Part shown: positions 1 to 6,803 of the stretch, one piece after another
How the letters are laid out: every line of letters begins with the position of its first letter
Position numbering within the stretch: position 1 is the stretch's first letter
Assembly: GCF_902170305.1 (NCBI RefSeq)
Contig: NZ_CABHWW010000024.1
Coordinates: forward strand, 1-64,000
Direction: 5' to 3'
Length of the DNA stretch: 64,000 nt
Source of the DNA: Yersinia alsatica
GTDB lineage: Bacteria; Pseudomonadota; Gammaproteobacteria; Enterobacterales; Enterobacteriaceae
The notes under the pieces: model-generated
Databases searched by the model: none
Told to the model about the DNA's origin: nothing
Seen by the model: the letters and a program-made list of their open reading frames with translations, nothing else
Made by a program: the position numbers and the translations under genes

Positions 1-506
1 CTTTCATTTAGAGGATAATATTCTTTTGATACACCATTATAAATAATTCTTATTTTATTATCGGGGACAGCGCAAAAAATTTGTAAATCTTTGGCTGTAT
101 TTTCAGAAACACAGATCACCAAATCACTATTATCTATAGCCCTCTTCTTTTGCCAGGAATGAACCCATTTAGCAGGCCCTTGAATGAATCGTTCATAAGT
201 AAAATCATGTACAGTAGTAACTGTAGGCAATTTAATTTTTGGTATTCTATAATAAGATGAGTGGAATATTGAATTATCATAAATCTGGCTATCTATTAAA
301 TCAGTGACAAAGAAATCGCGATATCTTTCAAGAAAACGAGGAGAAAGAGTGACGCTATTAGATGGGCCAATATCAGAGAATTTATCATCATATTGATACC
401 AACGAAAATCATCAGGAGAGATGCGTGATAGTAACTCTTTGAAATAAACAGTTATTCCACCATTCTTTTGGAGAGAACTAATTATTCCGTCATAAATTAT
501 ATCCAC
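1..506 (-). CDS. Glycosyltransferase family 4-type protein, 5' part only
   Basis: This is the N-terminal ~168 residues of a leftward gene cut by the window edge. The frame is open from a GTG at 506 (a TAG lies two codons upstream) to base 1. A purine-rich GGGGTAGGTA just upstream could serve as ribosome binding site. The N-terminus carries a Gly-Gly-Ile-Thr-Val-Tyr-Phe stretch, as in the nucleotide-sugar transferase GT-B fold. The segment VTTVHDFTYE, followed by CVSE and ending in YNGVSKEYYP, is typical of the end of the GT4 acceptor domain and its inter-domain linker. It is the last visible gene of the surface-polysaccharide operon. It probably adds one sugar to the repeat unit or core at the cytoplasmic face. 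The sugar and linkage cannot be read from sequence. Confidence 0.75.
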   Translation of the reverse strand, partial: MDIIYDGIISSLQKNGGITVYFKELLSRISPDDFRWYQYDDKFSDIGPSNSVTLSPRFLERYRDFFVTDLIDSQIYDNSIFHSSYYRIPKIKLPTVTTVHDFTYERFIQGPAKWVHSWQKKRAIDNSDLVICVSENTAKDLQIFCAVPDNKIRIIYNGVSKEYYPLNE

Positions 507-580
507 TACCTACCCCATTTTGTTTTTTGATAAAAAGGCTTTATTAAATACGATAATAAAAATAATATTATCGCATTAGA

Positions 581-1387
581 CTATTTCCCTATCACCTTAA
601 TATAAAGACTTCTTAGGCATGTTCTTACTAACATTAGCAACAGATGACAAGTGATTAAAAATCTACTTTTATTTAATAACAGTGAGTTTTTATATACAGA
701 TAAATAGCTCTCAAATCTCTTCTTATCAGAAACTCCTCCACCAGAATAATTTGCAATAGGTATATTTTCTAGCATCAGAAACTGCTCATTTGCAAGATAT
801 TTTCTTATTAATAAATTATGGTCAGCTGCTGAACCTGCATTAATATCATATTCTATAGGTGTTACAGATCGTCGTTTAAATACCATCGCCTGATGAGATG
901 TTGGCATCTCTTTCCATAAGTTATCTATTTTTTTTGCAATCCTATAGCCATTATGCCTAAAAGCATCGTGAACATAATAGTCACCGTATATAACATCGTA
1001 ATCACTGATAGCTGGGTATGACATAACATTATCTATTGAATGTTCATTAAAAAAAGTATCACCTGCATTCATGAAAATAATAAAATCTCCTGTTGCTAAT
1101 TTCACTCCTTTATTCATTGCATCATAGATACCATTGTCTTGTTCGCTGCACCACCAATAAATTTTGTCCTCATTATTTTTTATAATTTCAACAGTTCCAT
1201 CATCTGAGCCACCATCAACAACAATAAACTCTACATTTTTATATGTCTGTGATGTAATCGAATCGATGGTTTTCTTAATCTCAGATACATTATTATACAC
1301 GACGGTAATAACACTCACTTTTGGGTGAGCAATACACTCATTATTATTTTCCAAATTTAAAACCGCTCCATACTTTTCTCGTCGCAT
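581..1387 (-). CDS. Glycosyltransferase family 2, WcaE-like
   Basis: The product is 268 aa with a GT-A fold. PKVSVITVVYNN near residue 23 begins the nucleotide-binding domain, VVDGGSDDGT is at 56-65, SEQDNGIYDAMNKG at 81-94, and MNAGD (the metal-binding DxD equivalent) at 106-110. The DNGIYDAMNKG block resembles the colanic-acid transferase WcaE. It should transfer a sugar from a nucleotide donor onto the lipid-linked oligosaccharide. The start at 1387 overlaps the preceding gene by 31 bp and has no clear Shine-Dalgarno. A TTG twelve codons in, preceded by GGAG, is a possible alternative. The conserved domain is unaffected either way. Donor and acceptor are unknown. Confidence 0.85.
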   Translation of the reverse strand: MRREKYGAVLNLENNNECIAHPKVSVITVVYNNVSEIKKTIDSITSQTYKNVEFIVVDGGSDDGTVEIIKNNEDKIYWWCSEQDNGIYDAMNKGVKLATGDFIIFMNAGDTFFNEHSIDNVMSYPAISDYDVIYGDYYVHDAFRHNGYRIAKKIDNLWKEMPTSHQAMVFKRRSVTPIEYDINAGSAADHNLLIRKYLANEQFLMLENIPIANYSGGGVSDKKRFESYLSVYKNSLLLNKSRFLITCHLLLMLVRTCLRSLYIKVIGK

Positions 1388-2610
1388 AGCATTTTATATA
1401 CGTTATTATATTCAGAAGCGATTACATACTCTGAGCGAATAGAAGCGCTCAAAGTTGACAGTATATTGCTATTACGCTTGACTGATAGTTGTTCTTGAAT
1501 AGCATTATACAAGCTATCTACATCAATGGGATTCACTAGATGCCCATATTCGGATGTTGATATCAGATCCGGCATACCTCCGAGATCAAAAGCGATACAA
1601 GGAGTTCCACATGCAAGAGACTCGACTATAGTATTAGGTAAGTTATCTTGCAACGAAGGTGCAATAAAAATATCTACCGCTGAGTACAGCAAACAAAGTG
1701 TTATATCATCATAAATTCTCCCCATATAATGGGTCGGAATTCCTACATCTTCATCTGATTTTTCACCGCTGGAGCCAAAGATGATTAACTCTACGTCATT
1801 AATTTCATTACTTTGCTTTAGCTTGAGTAAAGCATTTTTAAGTAAAGCATATCCTTTCCGCGGATCGCTAGTACTAGACATAGCCCCAAAAAGCAGCAAT
1901 TTCTTGTTCATTGGTAAACGCATTATTTCGCGAGCGATCTTTTTATCTATAGGACGATAGAGTTCATGGTCTATACAATTACTGATTACTGTAACTGGAT
2001 GTTCCTTGAACAAGGAACTAGAACTTACGCACCCACCAAGCCATCTGCTTGGTGAAACAAAAAGTATAGATTTATTTCGTAAGTGATTATATTTATGTTT
2101 ATAAATTATGCGATCTATATCAATGCCAATAATACCCTTCACCCGATTTAATTTAGAGTATGCATTTTTATAGCGTTCTGCAAATGTATCATCATAGTGT
2201 TTACAACCCGAGAAGGCCCACATGTCATGTAAAGTCCAGACTATTGGCTGCTGAATACGGCTAATTTCTTTTATTGATAACATTTCCCCTCCAATCCAAT
2301 GTAAGTTAATAACATCAGGGGAAATAGTATTAATATATGAGTGTAGACCAGAAGGAAATATATTAAGTGAACGTCGAGCAGTACTTGAATCTTTCTGCAA
2401 TTTAAGAAGTTGTACTGAAACAAAATTCATTATTTTTATTCTTAACTTTATTAATTTAGAAACAGTAAAAACATGAGGGTCATCAGACATTTTATGCACG
2501 ACCAACATATTACTATCTAGCCCAATCTTACGTTGAGCTCTATGTAATCTATATGCTGCTCTTGCCGCTCCACCATCGAGATCACTATAGCAAATATGTA
2601 ATATTCTCAT
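1357..2610 (-). CDS. Glycosyltransferase family 4, WcaC-like
   Basis: The product is 417 aa with a GT-B fold. The N-terminus has the donor/acceptor glycine loop GGAARAAY at 13-20. WTLHDMWAFSG at 125-135 is the signature seen in WcaC-type colanic acid transferases. The C-terminal domain has APSLQDNLPNTIVESLACGTP (about 317-337), the GT4 motif whose glutamate contacts the nucleotide sugar. The start lies one base past the stop of the radical SAM/pyruvyl transferase gene, so translation is probably coupled. The 3' end overlaps the GT2 gene. It is predicted to build the surface glycan at the inner face of the membrane; specificity is unknown. Confidence 0.85.
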   Translation of the reverse strand: MRILHICYSDLDGGAARAAYRLHRAQRKIGLDSNMLVVHKMSDDPHVFTVSKLIKLRIKIMNFVSVQLLKLQKDSSTARRSLNIFPSGLHSYINTISPDVINLHWIGGEMLSIKEISRIQQPIVWTLHDMWAFSGCKHYDDTFAERYKNAYSKLNRVKGIIGIDIDRIIYKHKYNHLRNKSILFVSPSRWLGGCVSSSSLFKEHPVTVISNCIDHELYRPIDKKIAREIMRLPMNKKLLLFGAMSSTSDPRKGYALLKNALLKLKQSNEINDVELIIFGSSGEKSDEDVGIPTHYMGRIYDDITLCLLYSAVDIFIAPSLQDNLPNTIVESLACGTPCIAFDLGGMPDLISTSEYGHLVNPIDVDSLYNAIQEQLSVKRNSNILSTLSASIRSEYVIASEYNNVYKMLCDEKSMERF

Positions 2611-2611
2611 T

Positions 2612-4945
2612 TCAGTTTTTGTTCAATTTATTTTTAAGTAGTGTGCTAAAAGTTAGTATATCTTTAGATAAAGGCAGAGGTTTGGGGGATTTCAATGCTT
2701 TTTCTAGAGTAGTAACTAATTGATCAGCGTCCATTGTTATCATAGAAATTAGTTCTACTCCGTATTTTTCTGCCAAAGAGCATACTTTCCCTTTTCCCAG
2801 CGTATAATCTAGTGCTACTGAATTAGTTCCCAATCCAAGAGAAAAGACTAAGGAATGAAACCTCATACCTAATAAAGCATCAGCAGTGCTAAACGCATTG
2901 CAATACTCAATAGGGGACATTTCGGGTCCGAGTAATGATTCATCGGTACTGGCCATTATGTCTTCATGCCCACGGAAAAGTTTTCTGTAGAACCAACGAT
3001 CGTCAGATCCAAAGTGGTTTGTGCACATCGGTAATGGACGGATAACCAGAGATGGATCTTTTGCAATTAATTGCTTTAATGCATCAACTATTGTTTTTTC
3101 ATAATTATTTTTAATTGCGATGCATTCATTTTCTGATAAGTCACGAGCATATTCTTTATAAGGAAAATCGCGTAACCCTAATAGCAGAATTTTTTTACTT
3201 CGATCATCTTTTTCTGTATGTAGCGACGGCTGGATAGTAGACAACCATGTGAATGCTGGATCTTCCGCTACAACATCCTCTTGCGTGTCAATACCTAATT
3301 CAGAGGCATAGTCTTTTGAACGTTTATCTCGATAAATTCGGATATCTGATAGTCCTAAAATACTAGCCATACTACGGTTATGCCACTTACTTCCGTAGGG
3401 ACCAACACCACATCCTGCGAGGATTGTTTTTGTACCAGCTGATTTAGCTCGTTTGAATATAGCCTCAATAGGTGCTAGAGAGTTAATTCCCATTATTGGA
3501 CCACCACCAAAGACTACATAATCCATATTAGCTGCCATCGACGCACCTCCTTCAGGCGTCACGATATGTGTATTATGAAATTCAGGCATCTGAATACGCG
3601 TCATTTGGCTTACATACGGGAATAGCGAGACAACTATAAATTGTGTATCTTCTCCGAGATATTCTCGTAAACAATGCATCACTCCAGCAATGATACCTTT
3701 ATCACCTAATGTTTCGGTACCATACCAACCACAAATCAATACACGCTTGCCAATTTTTAATTTTATTGTCGGCTGTTCTTCAATAGAAAGATAATATTTA
3801 AGATTCTTTGCAAACTGCATTTTATGTCGTAGTTCATTTAAAAAATTAAATCCTGGGATTTTTTTGGCTTTATCTTTTAGTTTTATTTTAAACTTCTCTT
3901 CTAGTCGTTCAATAAATATTGAACGATATAGTTTTTTATCCGGTATCCCTACATAATCATGATGACAGCTATCACATTTAGTTTGTATGATTTCTTTTAG
4001 ATGATCTTTATTGTCGAAAAATACCTTTAGAGGATCTCCTTCTGAAATATCCTTCATTAATACTTTACTTTGTACAGCACAATAAGCCAATTCTCCTTTT
4101 GCAGTAATTGTTGCACCGCGATGTTTCCAATCACATCCGGCGCCCCTTGGCTTATCCAATATTATTTGATTGATTAATGAACGATAAAACAAACGTTGCA
4201 TTGAATCTGTTTCGTAAAATTTAATAACACCTTCAAGAAACTCAACAAATTCATATTTTTCTTCAAATGTTAATGCGTAAGGATCAAGCAAATTTGCTGT
4301 ATAAAGGCGTTGATGAGGAACACCCTGTCGAAATTTTATATAAACTCCCTTTCTTATACAAAATTCGAGTAAATCAGGCAAATGGAATACATTTTCACGT
4401 ATTACGGTACATCCAATTCTCACATTATCGACCAATGGGTACTCGATAATAAAATCAATGACTTTTTGAGCATTTGCAAAGTTACCACTTCTTCCTCTAA
4501 CCAAATCATGAATTTTTTCAAAACCATCTAGTGATACCATTACGTCAAACTTAATATTTTTTTCGCGTAGTATCGGTGCAATAGTTTTTATTTTTTCAAT
4601 AACTTGAATGTATTTATACGCATTAGTTATTAGAGATACATGCTTCAATTTAGGTAGCGATGCAACTACAACCTCAACTAGTTCATGTAAATCCTCTCTA
4701 AGGGTCGGTTCTCCTCCATTAAAACCAATTCCTTCGACTTCACTAAAAAGCTCACTAGCCAACCCTTTTCGTAGTTGCATTACTGTTATGTCAGTACTTT
4801 TTTTATTTTCCCAAATACGACACATTTGGCATTTTGAATTACAAATATCGATAACTGGAAATTGGATTACTGTTGGCTTTTGTAATGGTAATGGCCGCGG
4901 AGCGAACAAACATCTAAGTTGGTTTATAATTGATACTAGTTTCAT
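2612..4945 (-). CDS. Fusion of radical SAM/SPASM enzyme and polysaccharide pyruvyl transferase
   Basis: A single 777-residue frame carries two unrelated enzymes. Residues 30-330 are a radical SAM domain: CNSKCQMC at 35-42 binds the 4Fe-4S cluster and NGGEP at 76-80 contacts SAM. A SPASM-like C-terminal cluster region follows, with Cys271, Cys289, Cys324 and Cys327. A basic linker (about 335-398) leads to a CsaB/WcaK-type pyruvyl transferase domain at 399-777. That domain has ICGWYGTETLGDKGI near its start, FGGGPIMG at 479-486 and GMRFHSLVFSLGLG at 693-706. The start has AGGA five bases upstream of the ATG. The gene sits 14 bp after the flippase gene and abuts the next glycosyltransferase. The transferase half should attach a pyruvate ketal (from phosphoenolpyruvate) to a sugar. 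The role of the radical SAM half is unknown. Confidence 0.85.
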   Translation of the reverse strand: MKLVSIINQLRCLFAPRPLPLQKPTVIQFPVIDICNSKCQMCRIWENKKSTDITVMQLRKGLASELFSEVEGIGFNGGEPTLREDLHELVEVVVASLPKLKHVSLITNAYKYIQVIEKIKTIAPILREKNIKFDVMVSLDGFEKIHDLVRGRSGNFANAQKVIDFIIEYPLVDNVRIGCTVIRENVFHLPDLLEFCIRKGVYIKFRQGVPHQRLYTANLLDPYALTFEEKYEFVEFLEGVIKFYETDSMQRLFYRSLINQIILDKPRGAGCDWKHRGATITAKGELAYCAVQSKVLMKDISEGDPLKVFFDNKDHLKEIIQTKCDSCHHDYVGIPDKKLYRSIFIERLEEKFKIKLKDKAKKIPGFNFLNELRHKMQFAKNLKYYLSIEEQPTIKLKIGKRVLICGWYGTETLGDKGIIAGVMHCLREYLGEDTQFIVVSLFPYVSQMTRIQMPEFHNTHIVTPEGGASMAANMDYVVFGGGPIMGINSLAPIEAIFKRAKSAGTKTILAGCGVGPYGSKWHNRSMASILGLSDIRIYRDKRSKDYASELGIDTQEDVVAEDPAFTWLSTIQPSLHTEKDDRSKKILLLGLRDFPYKEYARDLSENECIAIKNNYEKTIVDALKQLIAKDPSLVIRPLPMCTNHFGSDDRWFYRKLFRGHEDIMASTDESLLGPEMSPIEYCNAFSTADALLGMRFHSLVFSLGLGTNSVALDYTLGKGKVCSLAEKYGVELISMITMDADQLVTTLEKALKSPKPLPLSKDILTFSTLLKNKLNKN

Positions 4946-4959
4946 AAAAATCCTACAAG

Positions 4960-6276
4960 TTACTTTTTTTGCATCCAGTTATAATTTAATAGGGTCACTA
5001 TTAATTTATATGCTTGTGTTGGTAGAAAAGATTTTGTTTTCAACCAAAACATGCCTCTTAATGATGGTATAAAAAAATCAAAAATATAAAATGCTGATGC
5101 TAATCCTGCAACCGTGGCTATTGCTGCACCTTTCACGCCGTATATTGGTATTAATGCAATATTTAAAATGAAATTAATAAGCAATCCAAATAAATTTCTG
5201 TACAAATTTAATTTTAATTTTTTCTCTGCAACAAGCCATGAACCTGAAGATATTCCCATACAAAGAAATACAGCTCCCCAAGTATGTAGTATAACTACGC
5301 CAGCACTATCTAAGTATTGACCACCATAGATAACTCTAATAATAAAACCACCAAACAGAGTAAAGAAAATAGCCATTAATAGTGACATATAAACCAGGAG
5401 TGTACTTAACATAGACACCCCGTTAAGAAAGCTTATATTAGATACTTTTCTTAGTTCTATTAGCTTTGGAAAAGTCGCTGCGACAATAGCTGTGGGAACA
5501 AAGTACCAAGCTTCACTAATTCTTGTTGCAGCTGAATATATACCAACACTAGCTGGACCTTTCATTAACTGCAACATTATTTGATCCATTTTCATAAATA
5601 GTATCGCACCAAACCCCGCGATTATTTCTGGCCATGACTCAATTAATAACGCTTTAGTTTTCTGCATATTAAAGTTTCGATAAGAGACAAAATATGGCCC
5701 ATTACTTCTATTGCAAATAAAATAAATAATAATTGCTGTTATGGCATATTCTATTGATACTGCACTTACAAACCATATAAGTGGAAGTTCTAGTAATATA
5801 AAAACCATCCGAATTAAAGCGGATATAATAAACCCAACCGTTCGGCAAAGACTAATTATCTTAAATGATGATAAGCCTTGTTGATGATAATCTAGAACAT
5901 CTATCGAAATAAAAACAACTGAAGAAAGAATAATCGCTATATTTAAACTATCTTGGGAGGTAGATATGGCATAAAAAATAAATGAGATTATTATCCAAAT
6001 TAGTAACGATGCTAAAAGTCGAAGATATAATGATGTAGAAACAATAACTGAGCGTTTGGTTCGACTCATAATTTTGTCAACGACTTCTCGGACTATAATT
6101 CTATTTAATCCGAGAGAGGATAAAACCGTAGCTATCGTTAAAATTGCTATATAATAGTTTAGCTGTCCAAATTCGACAGGCCCTAAATAACGGGCTATTA
6201 TAGCGCTTATAAATACGCTAACAATAAGCCTAATTACCTTTTCACTTACCATCCAAAATGTATTTTTAATTACCAC
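4960..6276 (-). CDS. wzx: Wzx-type O-unit/oligosaccharide flippase
   Basis: The product is 438 aa and very hydrophobic, with about 12 membrane segments across its length. The N-terminal VSVFISAIIARYLGPVEFGQ is the signature of the polysaccharide transporter (PST/MATE-like) family. It should move the undecaprenyl-linked glycan from the cytoplasmic to the periplasmic leaflet. The best start is a GTG at 6276 with AGGTG eight bases upstream; the first ATG (codon 9) has no comparable site. It is the first gene of the operon, about 125 bp after the JUMPstart element. wzx-first order just after hemH resembles the Yersinia outer-core cluster layout. The symbol reflects family; substrate is unknown. 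Confidence 0.85.
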   Translation of the reverse strand: MVIKNTFWMVSEKVIRLIVSVFISAIIARYLGPVEFGQLNYYIAILTIATVLSSLGLNRIIVREVVDKIMSRTKRSVIVSTSLYLRLLASLLIWIIISFIFYAISTSQDSLNIAIILSSVVFISIDVLDYHQQGLSSFKIISLCRTVGFIISALIRMVFILLELPLIWFVSAVSIEYAITAIIIYFICNRSNGPYFVSYRNFNMQKTKALLIESWPEIIAGFGAILFMKMDQIMLQLMKGPASVGIYSAATRISEAWYFVPTAIVAATFPKLIELRKVSNISFLNGVSMLSTLLVYMSLLMAIFFTLFGGFIIRVIYGGQYLDSAGVVILHTWGAVFLCMGISSGSWLVAEKKLKLNLYRNLFGLLINFILNIALIPIYGVKGAAIATVAGLASAFYIFDFFIPSLRGMFWLKTKSFLPTQAYKLIVTLLNYNWMQKK

Positions 6277-6803
6277 CAGTTCTACACCTAATTAAGTTTT
6301 TGGAGTGTATGCCAGATCTTATCTATTAATAATATAATTTACCGCAGTGTGCCAGGAGTTCAGAAAATTGCATATCCATAAAGGTTACTTGGTTTTAAAA
6401 ACGCTACCGCCCTTGGCTCACAGCAACCAATACACTGATAGATAACACACCAAACTAGTAATACTCTCCATTGAGGCCATCTGTATGTGCTTTACAATAA
6501 GCCCTTACCACACTTCAAGTAAGAAAATACAGAGCCTTGCAACTAATTATTCTTTTAATTTTCCAACATATAGCCCATCATTACAAGAGAAATGTGAAAC
6601 ATATCATTTTTAGATATTTCACAACACACAACTAATTACCATCATGAAAATATTGAAATATCAATTCGTCTTATTCTGATTTAAAAAATAAAAACTACTC
6701 TTTCTTACTTTATTAAATTGGAAAACCACTCTTGCACATGTAATTATTACAGATAATACGAATATAGCCACTATAAGACACTTTATAATTATCACTACAA
6801 ATG
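6277..6803. other. AT-rich spacer between polysaccharide operon and hemH
   Basis: This 527-bp stretch has no credible gene. It holds the wzx leader (6277-6400), the JUMPstart element, and then about 365 bp of AT-rich DNA next to the end of hemH. The operon promoter should lie just upstream of JUMPstart (6440-6560), but I cannot pick one clear -35/-10 pair. No obvious terminator for hemH is visible. Confidence 0.6.
6401..6437 (-). promoter_or_regulatory. JUMPstart element containing the ops (RfaH-recruitment) site
   Basis: On the minus strand the ops core GGCGGTAGCGT is complete at 6401-6411. The 26 bases 5' to it (6412-6437) follow the JUMPstart consensus, beginning CAGTGTATTGG. JUMPstart leaders precede long O-antigen, core and capsule operons, where RfaH loads on paused polymerase and suppresses termination. 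Its position in the untranslated leader ahead of wzx marks the true start of the polysaccharide operon and predicts RfaH-dependent expression of everything to its left. Confidence 0.93.

Follow-up and report, generated by a model that had tools for sequence, protein, structure and literature searches.

The known glycan pyruvyltransferases have in common a conserved NxGD motif, an RxxxS/T motif and a histidine (PMC10629545, excerpt). In CsaB, the PEP site has been located by mutating R148, H308 and K328 and by a docking analysis that points to R306 (PMC10435577, excerpt). Among radical SAM enzymes with an auxiliary Fe-S module, the SPASM motif comprises seven cysteines (CX9-15GX4C-gap-CX2CX5CX3C-gap-C) and the Twitch motif is its truncated form with the first four of them; fold or function within this subfamily is described as hard to predict via sequence networks (PMC6231123, excerpt). 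The octosyl acid pathway illustrates that pyruvyl transfer and radical chemistry can be used on one another: a sugar first receives an enolpyruvyl group, which a radical SAM enzyme subsequently captures (PMC5365060, excerpt). Our literature search, which covered PMC papers with few subscription journals among them, yielded no publication that joins radical SAM enzymes with glycan pyruvyl transfer. To our knowledge, there is hardly any documentation of radical SAM enzymes acting on surface polysaccharides. In a review on glycan pyruvylation, the terms 'radical', 'fusion', 'fused' and 'bifunctional' do not appear (PMC6801904).

The window, i.e. the whole stretch of 64,000 nucleotides from Yersinia alsatica that was analysed, contains a gene in which the two enzyme types are joined. 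It lies on the minus strand (2612..4945) and runs without internal stop from an ATG at 4945, with an AGGA shortly 5' of it on the coding strand, to the stop at 2612, thereby encoding a protein of 777 amino acids. In the Pfam search, this protein matches Radical_SAM (PF04055) at residues 31-196 with 44.1 bits (cut-off 29.5) and PS_pyruv_trans (PF04230) at residues 379-714 with 90.2 bits (cut-off 25.3). The single uninterrupted gene of 777 codons reported in a preliminary description of this DNA is confirmed. An assembly or frameshift artefact is ruled out by 30 further intact homologous fusions, and since the same two-domain protein occurs intact at 30 other loci, the fusion is also beyond chance. 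What had appeared as an isolated case is instead a recurrent family. All 31 fusion proteins, i.e. the 30 intact relatives and the window protein that make up our alignment A2, contain both Pfam domains, and a single polypeptide holds both modules, each with putative catalytic residues that are conserved. Purifying selection acts on both halves in four of four close pairs tested, with dN/dS values of 0.027-0.151 for the radical SAM half and 0.037-0.227 for the pyruvyl-transferase-like half.

The relatives were collected by a scan of genome_contigs that used an alignment of the first two fusions as query and was seeded by two radical SAM peptide patterns. It returned 69 loci, of which 32 (L038-L068 and L079) match nearly the whole query and 37 chiefly the radical SAM half; because of the seeding, the 32 loci represent a lower bound that is biased to the radical SAM motif. 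Thirty of the 32 are intact single frames, one is broken (L040) and one is split (L067). The nearest relatives belong to Candidatus Symbiopectobacterium (67%), followed by Aeromonas and Shewanella (63-64%). The radical-pyruvyl fusion, which recurs in about 30 other bacteria of several phyla, looks like a genuine, uncharacterised family of enzymes that modify sugars in two steps, and not like an isolated oddity.

Within the genus, the fusion is present in one of 25 species genomes, namely the window's own. In searches of family, phylum and class samples that scored the best few candidates per genome, 142 of the 295 genomes of the family sample gave some protein match at E<=1e-3; among the matches listed, full-length cover is confined to the window's own genome and the next best match (E 1.8e-22) concerns the radical SAM half. 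Eight of 398 genomes of the phylum sample match at E<=1e-15, comprising the own genome, G466, in which the match extends over most of the length (residues 16-731, 30% identity), and six genomes with the radical SAM half only. A profile of the pyruvyl-transferase-like half finds two of these 398, again the own genome and G466. In the class sample, five of 369 genomes match at E<=1e-25, i.e. the own genome, G1005 with the pyruvyl-transferase-like half and three with the radical SAM half only. No match to the fusion was obtained by blastn in genomes of E. coli. Phage or plasmid cargo was considered and rejected, because matches in plasmids and phages extend over no more than 40% of the query and include no fusion; viral contigs gave four loci with short radical SAM matches. 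A wider Rosetta-stone pattern was rejected as well, since just one of the 37 loci with only the radical SAM half (L106) has an ORF matching the pyruvyl-transferase profile in the examined flanking DNA, some 5.5 kb away, and the 37 genes are therefore likely to belong elsewhere.

The radical SAM core domain (residues 31-196, 4358..4855, minus strand) contains the CxxxCxxC motif already recognised at residues 35-42, with its cysteines at positions 35, 39 and 42. These three cysteines, the GGEP motif and four later cysteines are invariant in the alignment of all 31 fusions. The later ones had also been pointed out in the preliminary description and are located at positions 271, 289, 324 and 327, where they form a putative Twitch-type auxiliary Fe-S site (residues 271-327, 3965..4135, minus strand) that reads CX12GX4C-X34-CX2C in the window protein. 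The spacing CX17C-X33/34-CX2C in 31 of 31 fusions corresponds to the Twitch pattern, and the glycine of this motif (G284) is kept in 28 of them. At E<=1e-3, none of the 31 proteins matches the SPASM model of Pfam. Since four cysteines stand against the seven of the SPASM definition (PMC6231123, excerpt), the auxiliary module is best regarded as Twitch-like and a full seven-cysteine SPASM module is rejected. Of the radical SAM/SPASM module proposed initially, the radical SAM core thus stands, and the SPASM part has to be replaced by Twitch. NF033640, a model of a Twitch radical SAM subfamily, is matched by all 31 fusions at E<=1e-10, the window protein scoring 52.5 bits and hence below the cut-off of 170. 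Seventeen solved sequences match the radical SAM half at E<=1e-3, with the peptide maturase SkfB as the best one. BtrN is absent among these 17, and the only entries that align through the auxiliary region (39-334) are anaerobic sulfatase-maturases.

The second module had been placed at residues 399-777 and is recovered as a pyruvyl-transferase-like domain at residues about 400-731 (2753..3748, minus strand), which contains the motifs GWYGTETxGD, RxxxS, DDR, MRFHS and GK. Next to PF04230, it is covered by TIGR03609, the equivalog model of CsaB, at residues 401-731, with 75 bits far below the cut-off of 213.1, and it aligns to E. coli WcaK by hhalign over 328 columns (probability 97.3). By profile, no solved pyruvyltransferase was retrieved at E<=10, and there was no credible PDB match. 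The alignment of the 31 fusions shows no variation at R539 and S543 of RxxxS, at D648-D649-R650, R695, H697 and K720, or at the GD of GWYGTETxGD; the RxxxS/T motif and the histidine of the known glycan pyruvyltransferases are thus represented throughout by R539, S543 and H697, and K720 is, judging from its position, the probable counterpart of K328 of CsaB. The NxGD motif reads TxGD in every fusion, as T412 aligns to the asparagine of NRGD in WcaK. The putative PEP site therefore seems to be kept and the neighbouring loop to be altered, since the arginine, histidine, lysine and RxxxS are invariant and threonine replaces asparagine at NxGD. The acceptor loop of the fusion presumably differs from that of CsaB as well. 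Together with TxGD, this loop suggests that the acceptor or the product may be unusual.

Some relatives deviate from the common architecture. In a deltaproteobacterial MAG (L067, 9860-12267), the two halves are encoded by adjacent overlapping open frames with putative starts and in the same order; they match the family half profiles with E 7.8e-73 and 2.2e-50, and a member of the GT4 cluster described below is located upstream and not downstream. In Shewanella sp. HN-41 (L040, 9878-12352), the frame is broken near its 5' end and is followed by a full-length GT4 frame. The locus L122 on contig C59 of G1005 (622-2589) encodes the pyruvyl-transferase-like half (E 1.9e-99) after about 300 N-terminal amino acids, for which no Pfam match and no radical SAM cysteine motif were found and hhalign to the radical SAM half gave 1.5%. 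As the serine of its RxxxS motif reads alanine, L122 differs in this position from the fusions. It may be a relic or a pyruvyltransferase working alone, and it offers a natural test of whether the pyruvyl-transferase-like half needs the radical chemistry.

In quick trees calculated separately for the two halves, with one long branch flagged, 16 of 29 splits are common and 13 differ. The common splits include the division into two clades, which comprise 13 (clade A) and 18 rows (clade B) in the full tree, and the split pair L067 branches between these fused clades in both half trees. The gene next to the fusion is another recurrent element. In the window, a GT4 glycosyltransferase gene (1357..2610, minus strand) starts one base after the stop of the fusion. 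Of 32 loci (including the window and L040, excluding L067), 27 contain a member of the same GT4 cluster; the clusters, L040 included, come from single-linkage grouping by blastp of ORFs called mechanically and do not represent curated families. The GT4 lies directly downstream in 25, in 11 of which it overlaps the fusion gene by four bases. The five stretches without it include L052, a Bacteroidetes MAG, where the partner GT4 is present in two pieces downstream of 4330. The coupled modification suggested in the preliminary description hence receives indirect support from the kept order, the common splits, the adjacent unfused pair and the recurrent GT4; the radical step and the order of the reactions are, as stated there, a matter of inference.

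The exporters associated with the fusion are of two kinds. Wzx is found in 14 and Wzm/Wzt in 14 of the 32 loci, with none having both and four having neither within the stretches examined. Wzx occurs in 10 of 13 loci of clade A, whereas the 18 loci of clade B include 14 with Wzm/Wzt and three with Wzx, some of these genes being encoded on the other strand. A Wzt_C domain is present in 12 of 15 Wzt proteins of the ABC-type loci; elsewhere, the end of the chain is recognised through a carbohydrate-binding module that belongs to the ABC transporter (PMC10629545, excerpt). By analogy, a capping role might be possible for the fusions of clade B. In Symbiopectobacterium (L038), gmd and manC follow downstream, and the same manC cluster also occurs in L039, L040 and L048. 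As in the window, ops-like sequences are located upstream of the fusion clusters of gammaproteobacterial relatives (L038 at 3567, L039 at 7243 and L040 at 1472).

In Y. alsatica, the fusion is part of a surface-glycan operon, as was proposed before. The gene order on the minus strand is a Wzx-type flippase identified by Pfam (4960..6276), the fusion, the GT4, a GT2 glycosyltransferase (581..1387; WcaE is its best match in NCBIfam but scores below the cut-off) and a GT4-like glycosyltransferase that is cut by the contig end (3..506). Upstream of wzx, the first gene behind it, lies a JUMPstart RNA element (6400..6437, minus strand; Rfam RF01707, 54.9 bits, E 1.1e-10) with the ops sequence at 6401-6411, and hemH (TIGR00109), adk and htpG are found beyond it. 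The GC content is 0.338 at 1-6300 and 0.472 right of 6800. We read the operon as one of the horizontally acquired O-antigen or outer-core type in the hemH-gsk locus, which has been described for Yersinia (PMC11380512, excerpt). The first base of the window is also that of the 204-kb contig C24, so the operon is cut there, and the remainder of the GT4-like gene was not found in the same genome assembly. This assembly contains a single PS_pyruv_trans match, which is the fusion itself, and no second such gene. The gsk gene, assigned through a homologue from the same genus that was used as query and meets NF011655, is situated on contig C10, so the locus is broken between C24 and C10. On the gsk side of C10 (L116, 1740-3836 and 14540-16249), gsk is preceded by genes for Wzm/Wzt, a GHMP-kinase and a nucleotidyltransferase, the latter two of which we take to be heptose-type. 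Owing to the Wzm/Wzt genes on this side, two export systems may be encoded in the hemH-gsk locus, which is what has been reported for Y. enterocolitica O:7/O:19 (PMC11380512, excerpt). Nothing usable was obtained from the literature on pyruvylated glycans in the host or in Aeromonas.

The reading that we favour, with a probability of roughly one half, is that the fusion is a bifunctional glycan-decorating enzyme, which combines a PEP-derived pyruvate with a radical oxidation on the sugar that the GT4 encoded beside it transfers. The enzyme would presumably be cytoplasmic. Its pyruvyl-transferase-like half would use PEP to bring a pyruvyl group onto a sugar in the lipid-linked glycan under assembly, and the radical SAM/Twitch half would make the 5'-deoxyadenosyl radical and abstract a hydrogen from the same or a neighbouring residue, with an electron passing to the four-cysteine auxiliary cluster in a BtrN-like two-electron oxidation. 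The modified sugar would most likely be the one added by the neighbouring GT4, and the finished unit might exit by the exporter of the respective host, Wzx in the present case and for one group of relatives, Wzm/Wzt for another group. Both activities, their common substrate, their order and an oxidation as the radical step are what we infer from the comparisons above. Several results tell against this reading, namely TxGD in place of NxGD, the lack of BtrN and of solved pyruvyltransferases among the matches, the N-terminus of L122, the loci without the GT4 or with it upstream, and the 13 splits in which the half trees differ. It is also possible, although we think it rather unlikely, that each half acts independently on its own residue within one repeat unit, the fusion fixing only stoichiometry and place and the outcome being an ordinary pyruvate ketal and an unrelated radical step. 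The linker between C327 and the GD motif, which varies from 63 to 96 residues over the 31 sequences, suggests that there is no tight interface, and the unfused pair of L067 and the N-terminus of L122 speak for modularity. However, order and pairing are conserved across several phyla and the half trees agree in 16 of 29 splits.

A more far-reaching and clearly improbable alternative is a radical C-C bond to the pyruvyl group, where the pyruvyl-transferase-like half would leave an enolpyruvyl ether (or a ketal) and the radical SAM half would close the ring to a high-carbon bicyclic acidic sugar. The altered and invariant GWYGTETxGD loop would fit such a changed outcome of pyruvyl transfer; PolA/NikO, however, have another fold, of the EPSP/MurA type. 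The precedent is the radical SAM enzyme PolH, which acts on the PEP-derived 3'-enolpyruvyl-UMP (PMC5365060, excerpt). With the same low likelihood, the fusion would then synthesise, as one polypeptide, a new class of surface sugars by a PEP-derived three-carbon transfer and a subsequent radical C-C or C-O ring closure, and O-antigens and capsules of several phyla would have their own equivalent of octosyl acid formation. We are even more doubtful about an epimerase or dehydratase role of the radical SAM half, which would prepare the diol for ketalisation. A ketal needs a defined diol, and radical SAM enzymes on sugar-like substrates do exist, among them cytosylglucuronate decarboxylase, which matches this half with E 3.1e-11. 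The seven cluster cysteines, however, are the only invariant ones in the radical SAM half, the next best being C179 in 21 of 31 fusions, and this disfavours a fixed thiol as hydrogen donor of the kind used by the epimerase NeoN. In addition, the Twitch/SPASM enzymes BtrN, PqqE and SuiB, though not MoaA, carry out oxidations (PMC9012708, excerpt). Least likely of all, in our opinion, is that the pyruvyl-transferase-like half is a GT-B-like transferase of a different kind, or a domain that terminates chains or docks to the exporter. The replaced asparagine of NxGD and the low score with the CsaB model would be in line with this, as would the Wzt_C domains and the reading of chain ends by transporter modules elsewhere (PMC10629545, excerpt), but both arginines, the histidine, the lysine and RxxxS of the PEP site are all kept and the Pfam cut-off is exceeded by 65 bits.

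The recurrent GT4 partner, the spread over several phyla and the occurrence with both kinds of exporters indicate that the module probably builds one particular modified residue. The combination of CNxxCxMCxIW and GWYGTETxGD in one protein, whose letters are invariant in all 31 fusions, can serve as a sequence marker for such glycans, and radical modification of O-antigens or capsules becomes directly testable.

With CsaB, WcaK and WbbZ, the ketal-pyruvyltransferases of PF04230, the fusion shares a profile match over the whole domain as well as RxxxS, R-x-H, the lysine and GD, but it differs from them in TxGD for NxGD, in the GWYGTET loop and in its N-terminal radical SAM domain. BtrN, which oxidises 2-deoxy-scyllo-inosamine, likewise has a Twitch module with full ligation by four cysteines (PMC6231123 and PMC9012708, excerpts); the agreement with this type of dehydrogenase consists of the cysteine pattern only, BtrN itself giving no sequence match. 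The CxxxCxxC core, GGEP and CX12GX4C-gap-CX2C are common to the fusion and the Twitch radical SAM enzymes in general (BtrN, SkfB, MoaA; NF033640), whereas the PEP-type transferase and the location in a glycan operon set the fusion apart. Like the hemH-gsk loci for O-antigen or outer core in Yersinia, the cluster adjoins hemH and (on C10) gsk and possesses a JUMPstart element, but the fusion is missing from all 24 genomes of other species of the genus that were examined. PolA/NikO and PolH of the octosyl acid pathway are separate proteins for a nucleoside substrate, with another transferase fold and no Twitch module, and differ from the fusion in these points. Nevertheless, they combine, as the fusion would do, a PEP-derived three-carbon transfer with a radical SAM reaction on a sugar (PMC5365060, excerpt).
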